A DNA stretch of 64,000 nt from Solwaraspora sp. WMMD791. Lineage in GTDB: Bacteria; Actinomycetota; Actinomycetes; Mycobacteriales; Micromonosporaceae. The stretch spans positions 3,387,001-3,451,000 of the forward strand of contig NZ_CP120737.1 of assembly GCF_029581195.1 (NCBI RefSeq). Reading direction: 5' to 3'. Position 1 is the stretch's first letter, and every line of letters begins with the position of its first letter. This document shows, one piece after another, positions 61,396-64,000 of this stretch. The position numbers and the translations under genes were made by a program. The notes beneath the pieces were generated by a model. That model was not told the origin of the DNA. It searched no databases and worked only from the letters and a program-made list of their open reading frames with translations.

Positions 61396-61503
61396 CGCCG
61401 GCGCGGTGCCGCCCCAGCACGGTCGGGAAATTGCCCCGACGACACCCGCGGACATACGTCACCGTGATTTCCTCCGTTCCGTCCACATCGGTACGGTGTG
61501 CGC

Positions 61504-62244
61504 ATGGCCGCCGCATACCCGGTACGGGTCAGCTTCACCGACCACATCTCCGCCACTGACTGGCAGGCACTGCAGCAGGCCGGTCAGCTCGTGCAGATCC
61601 GGCGCAGACAGGGGCTTTTCCTGCAGGACGACCAGAGCCGTGACGTCTTCGTCCTGATCTCCGGTGCGGCCAAGGTGTACCGCACCGAAGCCAACGGCAG
61701 CGAGACCATGTTGACCGTACGCTCCACCGGCGATCTGCTGGGCGACATCGCGGCGCTGGACGGAACGCCCCGGTCGGCCAGTGTCTCGGTGCTCAGTCAG
61801 GTGACCGCCCGCAAACTCACCAACGAACAGTTTCTCGCTCTGGTCGAGGACCGGGGCCTGCACGTGGCGCTGCGCCGGTACACCAACGCGCGACTGCGCG
61901 AGTCCGACGAACAACGAGTGGAGATCGCCTCCCTCCCGGTGCCGCAGCGGCTGGTCCGGGCCCTGTTGCGGCTCGCCAAGGCGGGCCCGGACGGACCTCG
62001 CCGGGCCGTACTCGATCTCGGCATCTCCCAGGACGGCCTGGCGCAGTTGATCGGCGCCTCCCGCAACGCGGTGGTCACCGCGATCAGCGAATTGCGTCGC
62101 GACGGTCTGCTGCGTACCGCACCGCGCCGCTACGAATTACTCGACGTCGATCGGCTCGCGACCATCGGATACCGCGCCCGGCCGTACGACGACAACGGAC
62201 GACGACAGCCGCGCCCCGACGACGACCCGGACCACCGCCGCTGA
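61504..62244 (+). CDS. Crp/Fnr family transcriptional regulator
   Basis: A 246-residue regulator. Residues about 15-125 form a cyclic nucleotide-binding-fold domain (LVQIRRRQGLFLQDDQSRDVFVLISGAAKVYRTEANGSETMLTVRSTGDLLGDIAALDGTPRSASVSVLSQVTARKLTNEQFLALV). The phosphate-binding cassette GDIAALDGTPRSAS keeps the Arg-Ser pair, so cyclic nucleotide binding is possible. Residues about 150-225 form the HTH_Crp (PRRAVLDLGISQDGLAQLIGASRNAVVTAISELRRDGLLRTAPRRYELLD). GTG 61498 is an alternative start two codons earlier. It lies upstream of a nucleotide-cyclase-like gene, which suggests a synthesis-response pair. Confidence 0.9.
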   Translation: MAAAYPVRVSFTDHISATDWQALQQAGQLVQIRRRQGLFLQDDQSRDVFVLISGAAKVYRTEANGSETMLTVRSTGDLLGDIAALDGTPRSASVSVLSQVTARKLTNEQFLALVEDRGLHVALRRYTNARLRESDEQRVEIASLPVPQRLVRALLRLAKAGPDGPRRAVLDLGISQDGLAQLIGASRNAVVTAISELRRDGLLRTAPRRYELLDVDRLATIGYRARPYDDNGRRQPRPDDDPDHRR

Positions 62245-62423
62245 CCGAACAGGTCGGCGGCACCACCATCTGTCGATCACGCAGCGCCCTGTTCAGACGG
62301 ATGCCGTCCGTCGAGGGTGCATAGTCGTCGGCAAATAGCGACTGTGCCCACTGGATGGCAGAGATCAGTGCGGGATCCTCGGCAGGATGCGAGGCCGACG
62401 ATCTCGAAGCGACAGGAGCACCA
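62245..62423 (+). promoter_or_regulatory. Intergenic region upstream of the cyclase-like gene
   Basis: The 179-base gap contains a less GC-rich stretch near 62315-62345 (GCATAGTCGTCGGCAAATAG) suited to a promoter. AGGAG at 62414-62418 lies five bases before the GTG at 62424 and decides that start over the ATG at 62355. No Crp palindrome is clear. Confidence 0.45.
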
Positions 62424-63314
62424 GTGGTCGCCATACCTGCGCCATTCACCACCACCAGGGAACTGCCCCCGTACACCGGCGTCCTCGCGGTCGACGCGTT
62501 GGGCTTCACCACCGAGCCCGGCAGCACCCACCAGCACATCAGTCACCTGATTCCGCAACTCGTTCGCCAGGCATTCGACGAGTCCGGCGTCGGCGAGGCA
62601 TGGCAGTCACCGCCGTTCTTCGCCAACACCGGTGACGGGCTCGCCATCGGCGTACCGACCAGGCTGCTGCCCGCGCTGGTCCATCCGTTCCTCGCCGTCC
62701 TGCAGCAGGTGCTGACCAACCACAACGCCACGATCCTGCGCGGTCAGCCGGTCATCCGGTTGCGGGTCAGCCTGCACGTCGGCCCGCTGCCGGTCGACCC
62801 CGACCGGCCCGAGTACTCGGGAAACGGCACCGCCCGCAACGACACCCACCGGCTGCTGGACTCCGACGCGGTCCGGATCATGCTGGCCGCCGCCGAACCG
62901 TCGGTCACCCACGTCGCGGCGATCCTGTCCGACCGGGTCTTCTGCGACGTCGTCCGGGACGGCTACACCAGCCGGCACCCGGACCATTTCATCGAGGTCG
63001 CGGCGAGCGTGCCGGGCAAGGGTTTCAGCCAGCGTGCCTGGCTGTACGTGCCGGAGCCGTCCGGCAGCCTGCTGGCGGCCCCCCGGTTCGCGGTGCAGCC
63101 GACCGGGCAGCCGGCCGGGCCGGAGCAGGACCAGGCCGGGTCGGCGCAGCAACCTACCGGGAGCGCGGACGCGGGCCGGGAGCCGGGCGCCGACCCGCGA
63201 CGGGCCCCGGACCAACGGGGTGAGCTACGGATCCGGCGCAACTCCGGGCAGGCCGCGAACCAGGTCAACGGCGGGATGTGGCAGTCCCGGGGTGGGCGTA
63301 CCGGATGGCACTGA
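62424..63314 (+). CDS. Class III nucleotide cyclase-like domain protein (signalling or conflict module)
   Basis: A 296-residue protein. Residues about 18-190 resemble actinobacterial cyclase-like domains: YTGVLAVDALGFTTEPGSTHQHISHLIPQLVRQAFDESG, FFANTGDGLAIGVPTRLLPALVHPFLAVLQQVLTNHN, RLRVSLHVGPLP, NGTARNDTHRLLDSDAVRIMLAA. The aspartates of AVD and TGDG match the two metal ligands of class III cyclases, and N-D-T-H-R fits the NxxxR motif, so activity is possible. The last 90 residues are disordered (Gln/Pro/Arg-rich). GTG is chosen on its AGGAG site. The stop overlaps the next gene by ten bases. Similar domains sit beside NTPase effectors in predicted conflict systems. Confidence 0.7.
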   Translation: MVAIPAPFTTTRELPPYTGVLAVDALGFTTEPGSTHQHISHLIPQLVRQAFDESGVGEAWQSPPFFANTGDGLAIGVPTRLLPALVHPFLAVLQQVLTNHNATILRGQPVIRLRVSLHVGPLPVDPDRPEYSGNGTARNDTHRLLDSDAVRIMLAAAEPSVTHVAAILSDRVFCDVVRDGYTSRHPDHFIEVAASVPGKGFSQRAWLYVPEPSGSLLAAPRFAVQPTGQPAGPEQDQAGSAQQPTGSADAGREPGADPRRAPDQRGELRIRRNSGQAANQVNGGMWQSRGGRTGWH

Positions 63315-64000
63315 CCGACGGGCTCGACGATCTGCTCGACGACGACCTGCTCGGTGCCGACGAACTCGGCCCGGAGCCGGCGGTCAGCGTCGCCGTCACC
63401 CACAACGACGGGCAGGTCGCCCACACCGTCTACGGCGGACTCCACCAGTACGTGCAGCGGGTCCGTGACTACCACGAGCTGAGCCCCGACTTCGTACGGG
63501 ACCGGCTCGACGGCTTCGTCGACCCCGGCTACCACACCGTCGGCGGCGACCGGCTCGACGGCGACGGGGCGCTCACCCTGCTGCGCCGCTACGGCGGAGC
63601 GATCCTGGTCGGCGGCCCCGGCACCGGCCGGTACACGGCGGCGCTGCGCCTGCTGCAGGGCACCGGACAACAGCTACGGGAGATCCGCCCGACGTACGAC
63701 CCGGCGCGGCAGGAGCAGCTGACCGTCGCCGAACTGCCCGTCGCGGCGGGCTTCGCCTACCTGCTGGAACTGCCCGAGCAGGCCCACCACATCCAGTACG
63801 GGTTCGCCCGCGACCTGGGTGCGTACTGCGCCAGCCTGGCCCGCCGCGGCTCCAGCGTCGCGGTGACCGTCACCGAGGCGACGTGGGCCCAGCTCGGTGC
63901 GGTACGCGACGGCCCGGTGCTGCGGGTCGGCGTACCGCCGCCGGGTCAGGTCCTCGGGCTGCGGCTGCGCCGGTTGCGCCCCGACCTGGATTTGCGCTGG
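63305..64000 (+). CDS. P-loop-like protein with degenerate Walker A, 3' truncated by window edge
   Basis: The frame is open to base 64000; 232 residues are visible. An acidic N-terminus (DGLDDLLDDDLLGADELG) precedes a segment with VYGGLHQYVQRVRDYHELSPDFVRDRLDGFVDPGYH. GGAILVGGPGTGRYTAALRLL (near residue 98) looks like a Walker A loop in which the invariant Lys-Thr/Ser is Arg-Tyr, so ATP hydrolysis at this loop is doubtful. A second mixed alpha/beta stretch follows (SSVAVTVTEATWAQL, GPVLRVGVPPPGQVLGLRLRRL). ATG 63305 overlaps the cyclase-like gene by ten bases, implying coupled translation. It may be a STAND-like or membrane-associated effector; the rest lies outside the window. Confidence 0.65.
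   Translation, partial: MALTDGLDDLLDDDLLGADELGPEPAVSVAVTHNDGQVAHTVYGGLHQYVQRVRDYHELSPDFVRDRLDGFVDPGYHTVGGDRLDGDGALTLLRRYGGAILVGGPGTGRYTAALRLLQGTGQQLREIRPTYDPARQEQLTVAELPVAAGFAYLLELPEQAHHIQYGFARDLGAYCASLARRGSSVAVTVTEATWAQLGAVRDGPVLRVGVPPPGQVLGLRLRRLRPDLDLRW

Follow-up and report, generated by a model that had tools for sequence, protein, structure and literature searches.

A Crp/Fnr–cyclase–P-loop operon in Solwaraspora and other actinomycetes, with a terminal motif shared by neighboring proteins: a candidate nucleotide-signaling circuit

What is the function of a nucleotidyl-cyclase-like gene that lies behind a Crp/Fnr gene and overlaps the gene for a protein with a degenerate P-loop? These three genes lie at the end of a window of 64,000 nucleotides from Solwaraspora sp. 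WMMD791 (genome positions 3387001-3451000; the genome is a single 6.93-Mb contig), each of them where an earlier note, made from the letters of this stretch, had placed it. The presence of a regulator, a signal-making enzyme and a receptor-like protein, the last two with a common end motif, suggests a built-in alarm circuit that would come on when two proteins stick together. The gene order is Crp/Fnr, cyclase-like, overlapping P-loop and, beyond the window, a gene for a protein of 238 residues. The genes within the window are as follows.

61498..62244, forward strand: Crp/Fnr-type transcription factor, identified by Pfam; ATG 61504 is a possible start
62424..63314, forward strand: class III nucleotidyl-cyclase-like protein, 296 residues, identified by its AlphaFold core and Foldseek against the PDB
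63305..64000, forward strand: pseudo-STAND-like P-loop protein, first 232 of 756 residues, continuing past the window end

For the P-loop gene, which overlaps the cyclase stop codon, the start is ATG 63305 or GTG 63278; counted from the ATG, its protein has 756 residues. Past position 64000, where the earlier note ended, this gene runs to genome position 3452575, and its end is overlapped by the 238-residue gene at 3452572-3453288; by our reading of the open reading frame (ORF) list, the gene that follows is on the opposite strand. The earlier note treated the cyclase and P-loop genes as coupled. They do overlap, but the unit comprises at least four genes, and the tie between the two proteins is a shared terminal motif rather than the overlap alone. 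The fourth gene and the motif are additions to the earlier note, as is a gene for the membrane effector PycTM found beside some relatives of the operon and absent from the window genome by Pfam model PF18967.

The Crp-cyclase-P-loop operon is conserved in Micromonosporaceae and in other actinomycetes. Among 61 genomes (the window genome and 60 relatives, matches taken at E 0.001), 21 have a match to the cyclase, 13 to the P-loop protein and 14 to the 238-residue protein. All three occur together in 12 of the 61, giving 13 full operons, since one genome (G005) has two, and every one of the 13 has a Crp/Fnr gene in front. A second set, the GTDB loci, is the best 80 of 90 relatives picked with a pair of conserved peptides containing catalytic-type residues. 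These loci are mostly from Streptomyces, with others from Kitasatospora, Salinispora, Actinoplanes, Micromonospora, Plantactinospora, Pilimelia, Fodinicola and further genera. In 79 of the 80, all except L106, a Crp/Fnr gene was found immediately ahead of the cyclase. When the class as a whole was sampled, 26 of 394 genomes had a cyclase match at E 1e-30. Our hold-out set is 20 of the 27 class-sample matches outside genomes G000 and G050; two of the 20 duplicate earlier loci and another, L160, ends at a contig end. The hold-out loci contain the Crp/Fnr gene in 18 cases, the P-loop protein in 18 and the fourth gene in 17. Counts over 101 loci, given below, include two duplicate pairs with identical sequences, L049/L068 (Actinoplanes philippinensis) and L051/L142 (Pilimelia terevasa), and a few loci shortened by contig ends.

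Within the genus, the operon is present in five of six relatives at one fixed syntenic place. The upstream TPR and LytR/CpsA/Psr genes are the same in 5/5 genus loci, and the downstream response-regulator, kinase and ABC genes in 4/5 (not in L044). The operon thus does not look like a mobile defense island. The dN/dS ratios are 0.04-0.43 against four genus-level loci (L040, L041, L043 and L044; L042 was outside the comparison) and 0.46-0.58 against L046, from another genus. Because of these ratios and the co-occurrence of the three genes in 12 of 61 genomes, the gene grouping exceeds chance.

The cyclase, P-loop and 238-residue proteins have no match above the cut-off in Pfam or NCBIfam, and the cyclase has none in PADLOC. 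Among these three proteins, hits at E 1 or better are seen for the 238-residue protein only, to CCDC93_N (0.058) and PADLOC DpdD (0.01). The idea that this fourth protein is SPFH/band-7-like is not supported by Pfam in 18 homologs. Sequence profiles run against the PDB gave no matches for the cyclase and noise only for the P-loop protein, so fold searches were needed. The AlphaFold model of the cyclase, made in a 319-residue frame, has a confident core at residues 41-231 and disordered ends. Foldseek found 47 PDB matches for this model at E 0.001 or better, and the best 50 matches listed are class III cyclases throughout. The best match is 3uvj_D (E 1.8e-5, probability 1.00), and the TM-scores by query are modest (0.30-0.41). 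From the model, we therefore assign the protein the predicted fold of a class III cyclase, which agrees with the cyclase-like identity proposed before. Adenylate and guanylate cyclases outrank pyrimidine cyclases in the list, which includes uridylate cyclase 8jsz (E 8.1e-5) and PycC 7r65 (E 1.1e-3); the substrate base cannot be read from fold and residues.

The AVD, TGDG and NxxxR (here NDTHR) motifs named in the earlier note are present in the protein. The window cyclase carries all four catalytic-type residues, presumably two metal-binding aspartates and a transition-state asparagine and arginine, roles that we assign by analogy with the class III cyclase family. Their positions in the 319-residue frame, and the ribosome-binding-like site, are listed below.

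62414..62418, forward strand: Shine-Dalgarno-like AGGAG before GTG 62424, from the sequence
62493..62495, forward strand: first metal-ligand-like Asp, D47 (Asp in 99/101 homologs, with 2 gaps)
62634..62636, forward strand: second metal-ligand-like Asp, D94 (Asp in 101/101 homologs)
62838..62852, forward strand: NxxxR motif, N162 and R166 (N162 in 93/101 homologs, R166 in 101/101)

The conservation in the GTDB loci is partly built in, because the peptides used to select them include catalytic-type residues. The eight exceptions at N162 are L052-L059, which are remote paralogs. Five of these (L053, L055, L056, L058 and L059) have Val in place of the catalytic-type Asn and are still near Crp/Fnr genes, which in L053, L055 and L056 are on the opposite strand; in L058, a PycTM-like gene lies between two Crp genes. 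As for the start of the cyclase gene, an alternative ATG at 62355 would give 319 residues, and the closest relative, L040, also has that ATG. GTG 62424, the start given in the earlier note, is probably the right one, because AGGAG lies in front of it and because the sole start codon found near the conserved cyclase region of L042 and L044 is at the matching place.

The P-loop protein was described before as having a degenerate Walker A sequence, and this turns out to be a property of the family.

63611..63634, forward strand: degenerate Walker A GGPGTGRY, residues 103-110 (GxxxxGK[ST] absent in 78/78 homologs)

Elsewhere in the family the stretch is mostly GxPGTGRRTAALNLL or GTGASTAAFALL, and L052 alone retains the Lys (GAGKEA). 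In the structural model, the first 54 residues are disordered and a P-loop-like alpha/beta part extends over residues 86-210, approximately. Beyond about residue 210 there is a helical and hairpin region, with helices to near the end and one long disordered gap. No Pfam match above the cut-off was found for the window protein, whether NB-ARC, NACHT or a similar NLR model. Below the threshold, Pfam nSTAND3 appears in 2 of 12 P-loop homologs (best 0.13) and in 10 of 17 proteins of the Streptomyces type (best 0.0026). An hhalign comparison shows these two P-loop sets to be homologous (E 1.2e-31) and, with less certainty, their fourth genes as well (E 3.2e-6, probability 87.9). The 50 Foldseek rows listed for the model contain AAA+ proteins (RuvB, p97, RFC), helical-repeat proteins and an Avs5 filament. 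The model thus points to a STAND/AAA-like part joined to a helical superstructure, with a weak fold match in the PDB, and we use the label pseudo-STAND-like in this sense.

Two side observations concern P-loop genes in relatives. In L042 (G004:C1:5043918-5045926), the gene is split over frames into pieces covering 4-235, 236-611 and 689-752, through either a sequencing error or breakage of the gene. L086 and L103 encode, beyond the fourth gene, a tiny protein (97 and 80 residues, respectively) and then a second P-loop paralog. The tiny protein of L086 carries NTGTVHGGQ, so that the arrangement in these two loci is possibly a second motif pair without a cyclase.

What couples the cyclase to the P-loop protein? 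A short motif is common to the last residues of the cyclase and the N-terminal region of the P-loop protein, of which the first 110 residues were examined.

63219..63296, forward strand: cyclase C-terminal tail motif GELRIRRNSGQAANQVNGGMWQSRGG, resembling the N-terminus of the next protein
63380..63457, forward strand: P-loop protein N-terminal motif AVSVAVTHNDGQVAHTVYGGLHQYVQ, resembling the cyclase tail

In the clade of the window, the motif has the form xNxGQVAxTVxGGMHQ, and in other loci the forms are NxNTGTVHGGQ, GFxxxxVxGGQH, AVMGNVGRDITYTG or VGQGxAxxGDVxGN. The motif type covaries, in that a change on one protein tends to accompany a change on the other. We scored the likeness by local BLOSUM62 alignment and compared cognate with non-cognate pairs in 10000 permutations. 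The 78 pairs comprise 64 from the GTDB loci and 14 from the own and relative loci. Left out were 16 of the 80 GTDB loci (duplicates L068 and L142, and 14 whose next ORF was too distant or fell outside 600-830 residues); among the 21 loci from the window genome and its relatives, the 7 with no called P-loop gene were left out as well. The mean score is 60.5 for cognate pairs and 37.3 for non-cognate pairs, and 0/10000 permutations reach the cognate value. Shuffled heads averaged 26.6 and reached 50 at most; windows taken from inside the same protein averaged 22.6 and reached 49. The cognate score is above the 95th percentile of shuffled heads for 69 of the 78 pairs and above the largest shuffle for 56. 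Among 19 hold-out pairs (one of the 20 loci, L166, was omitted from the matrix), the means are 59.8 for cognate and 40.7 for non-cognate pairs, again with 0/10000 permutations, and 14/19 pairs, or 12/17 without the two duplicates, score above all 20 of their shuffles. Shared ancestry raises the cognate scores relative to random pairing; the likeness between the facing ends of two otherwise different proteins, as judged from the sequences, is not explained by ancestry.

The first gene of the operon encodes a Crp/Fnr regulator, having both a cyclic nucleotide-binding domain (Pfam cNMP_binding, 62.7 bits; cut-off 27.5) and a Crp-type helix-turn-helix (HTH_Crp_2, 50.2 bits; cut-off 27). The phosphate cassette noticed previously is also found as a cassette-like stretch, and a palindrome lies between this gene and the cyclase gene.

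61729..61785, forward strand: phosphate-binding-cassette-like stretch GDLLGDIAALDGTPRSASV, residues 78-96 of 248 of the Crp/Fnr protein, from sequence and alignment
62345..62360, no strand: palindrome TGCCCACTGGATGGCA, a putative operator between the crp and cyclase genes, of the pattern TGCCC-N6-GGGCA

Allowing one mismatch at most, we find TGCCC-N6-GGGCA in the stretch that separates crp from the cyclase domain in 33 of 93 loci, compared with 1.3 expected; with duplicates removed, the count is 32 of 91. The pattern was first spotted in Micromonosporaceae loci, for which the count is circular; Streptomyces loci such as L111-L138 played no part in finding it. In the whole window it occurs at chance frequency (7 matches, 6.1 expected), so only its conserved place counts. 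Three hold-out crp-cyclase intervals carry TGTCC-N6-GGACA in its place. This sister form of the proposed operator is seen in perfect copies in the corresponding intervals of L163, L170, L171 and L052.

We give about an even chance to the proposal that the operon is a self-contained nucleotide-signaling circuit, in which the pseudo-STAND receptor activates the cyclase via the shared motif and the Crp/Fnr protein reads the product. The 756-residue protein would be a STAND-like receptor whose P-loop is inactive and which has a region of alpha-helical repeats; on meeting its trigger it would cluster. Its N-terminal motif would then recruit or template the matching motif at the cyclase C-terminus, in an assembly that is probably cross-beta, as in amyloid signaling. 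As the active sites of class III cyclases are at a dimer interface, the cyclase would become active on clustering. The Crp/Fnr protein of the adjacent gene would bind the cyclic nucleotide product and may act at the palindrome before the cyclase gene, perhaps at other sites too. The signal would probably also open the PycTM membrane effector in those relatives that have one. Since the window locus has no PycTM, its output would be transcriptional and/or through the 238-residue protein. The genes, the fold match, the catalytic-type residues, the gene coupling, the sharing and covariation of the motif and the conserved palindrome come from computation; the trigger, the clustering, the amyloid nature, the catalysis, its product, the ligand and the DNA binding we infer. 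Receptor clustering, passed on through the motif and the cyclase to a dedicated Crp/Fnr protein, accounts for all the parts most simply. The module for nucleotide-signal immunity or development suggested in the earlier note is partly supported, by the predicted cyclase fold, the Walker A that is degenerate throughout the family and the conserved operon; its catalysis and its immune or developmental role are putative.

Several observations weigh against this circuit. The motif pair of the window scores 49, ranking 7/78 and just below the largest shuffle (50), so this borderline pair by itself would not prove a shared motif. In addition, 9 of the 78 cognate pairs are not above the 95th percentile of shuffled heads, 5 of the 19 hold-out pairs fail to beat their own shuffles, several high scores run through low-complexity linker, and the motif-bearing ends of both proteins are predicted to be disordered. 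No PDB match for the P-loop model reaches E 0.001 in Foldseek, and because of this we restrict our claim to a STAND/AAA-like part and a helical superstructure. A P-loop match is missing from 9 of the 21 cyclase-matching genomes, mostly ones with remote paralogs, and G014 has a P-loop match and no cyclase match. The palindrome pattern was derived from some of the loci in which it was counted, and none of the 16 non-duplicate hold-out intervals has TGCCC-N6-GGGCA at one mismatch or fewer. As to a link with Pycsar, the window cyclase has no match to the PADLOC PycC models, six of its homologs gave one weak match (E 0.062), and only 2 of the 20 hold-out loci have a PycTM-like gene.

How would the motif act? 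One version of the proposed circuit, which we offer tentatively and consider somewhat improbable, is a prion-like signalosome: the pseudo-NLR would template an amyloid motif on the cyclase, the polymer would turn the cyclase on, and Crp/Fnr, with or without PycTM, would read the product. If true, an all-or-none assembly would be converted to a transcriptional state. Alternatively, the motif may be an ordinary short beta-strand docking element in a stoichiometric, EAD-like complex, with the P-loop protein as a scaffold or inhibitor holding the cyclase, whose release or dimerization would then control it. The covariation of the motif fits docking equally well. Matching noncatalytic modules on a core component and on the effector from an adjacent gene, with neighbors most alike, are the EAD principle as set out in passages of PMC7159879, and iSTAND2 systems infrequently carry cyclic nucleotide monophosphate (cNMP) cyclases linked by the same EAD, according to passages of PMC8195603. 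However, the EADs described in PMC7159879 are small domains, mostly alpha-helical, whereas the aligned motif stretch here is about 26 residues long, Gly/Asn/Val-rich and in regions predicted to be disordered, and we regard docking as unlikely, if by no means far-fetched.

What, then, would the signal serve? The locus may be a Pycsar-type anti-phage system whose effector has been lost or moved in the window genome, with the cyclase making cUMP or cCMP on infection. Searching with a home-made hidden Markov model, built from 24 of the same proteins it counts, we find a PycTM-like gene downstream of the cyclase in 40 of 101 loci, or 39 of 99 once duplicates are removed; all four operon representatives checked pass the Pfam PycTM cut-off (32.7-48.8 bits; cut-off 27.2). 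PF18967 has 16 matches in 13 of the 61 genomes, 8 of them within about 5 kb of a homolog of the window cyclase, some of these remote. The two pyrimidine cyclases in the Foldseek list also fit, as does the nucleotide-binding domain of the Crp protein, whose best PADLOC score is with PycTIR. But only 3 of the 13 full operons have PycTM, adenylate and guanylate cyclases stand higher in Foldseek, and the position is fixed within the genus. Because the window genome has no PycTM match and PycTM is so rare in the hold-out loci, the window locus falls outside the definition of Pycsar, and a Pycsar-type system is quite improbable; the sequences point rather to a cyclase lineage that is sometimes used with a Pycsar effector. 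Somewhat less doubtful, though still unlikely, is a developmental or stress regulator apart from immunity, in which a cell-state cue in filamentous actinomycetes adjusts transcription via Crp/Fnr. Its presence with shared flanking genes in most relatives of the genus, the low dN/dS within the genus and the putative operator inside the operon favor this role, but the PycTM of some relatives suggests a cell-damaging output, and occurrence in the class at E 1e-30 is patchy. As separate observations, restriction-endonuclease-like proteins are encoded downstream of L077, L084 and L116, and vWA-like secreted proteins downstream of L077 and L116, by our reading of the sequences.

How does the proposed circuit compare with known systems? 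No description of a Crp-cyclase-pseudo-STAND operon was found among the literature matches listed, in line with the earlier note, which had taken the arrangement as undescribed. Among the same matches (titles and abstract starts), there was no cyclase joined to an amyloid-signaling motif, although the founding paper on bacterial amyloid-signaling motifs (BASS; Dyrka 2020) may mention one; the word "cyclase" is absent from the main text of PMC7889193 and PMC12261475. With Pycsar, the operon shares the predicted class III cyclase fold, a cyclic nucleotide-binding domain encoded nearby and, in relatives, PycTM beside the operon. It differs in that the binding domain is on a Crp/Fnr transcription factor and not on a TIR protein (Pfam gave no TIR hit among the four operon proteins), in having a pseudo-STAND protein joined by a shared motif, and in lacking both PycTM in the genome and recognition by the PycC models. 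With the class III cyclases CyaC (1wc1) and Rv1900c (1ybu), the cyclase shares fold and catalytic-type residues, but identity is 10-18% in the rows listed, Pfam does not recognize it, and it has a C-terminal motif tail.

Passages of PMC7889193 and PMC8086366 describe BASS motifs in pairs of genes that adjoin or overlap, at the N-terminus of an NLR and at the C-terminus of a Bell or, more rarely, a CHAT or TIR protein. The operon resembles these pairs in having the same motif at a receptor-like N-terminus and at the C-terminus of the protein of an adjacent, overlapping gene, in having several motif types and in occurring in actinomycetes. This layout is found for the family and is borderline for the window pair. 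The likeness is one of motif placement. The partner here is, unlike in BASS pairs, nucleotidyl-cyclase-like, and the receptor, whose P-loop is degenerate, lacks a Pfam NLR match above the cut-off. In the iSTAND/iSTAND2 and EAD systems (Kaur et al. 2020, 2021), a matching module likewise ties an inactive STAND protein to the enzyme encoded next to it; cNMP cyclases occur there infrequently, and an iSTAND2 example from Micromonospora is named. The window operon adds a dedicated Crp/Fnr. Those systems have a MoxR-vWA pair; the nearest PF07726 (MoxR) match in the window genome is at 3584223, about 131 kb past the operon end at 3453288, and vWA was not searched. Finally, Kaur et al. (2020, PMC7159879) describe actinobacterial peptide-processing systems with an AP-ATPase, some of which are linked to a CRP-like regulator. 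These too place a STAND-type ATPase and a CRP-like, cNMP-recognizing factor in one neighborhood, but are centered on a metallopeptidase and its peptide, with no cyclase or shared terminal motif named in section 24 of that paper.

A discussion passage of PMC11224242 treats as open the question whether Pycsar-type cyclases are activated by oligomerization, and the outcome of amyloid-motif signaling in filamentous bacteria is said, in PMC7889193, to await exploration. The operon joins both questions, since its neighboring genes encode a receptor-like protein, a cyclase-like enzyme, a matching motif pair on these two and a probable reader. A checked feature sets it apart from each of Pycsar, BASS pairs and iSTAND, and it is a member of none of them. 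Its closest precedents are these three, with iSTAND taken together with its EADs, and the CRP-linked AP-ATPase systems (Kaur et al., PMC7159879 and PMC8195603).

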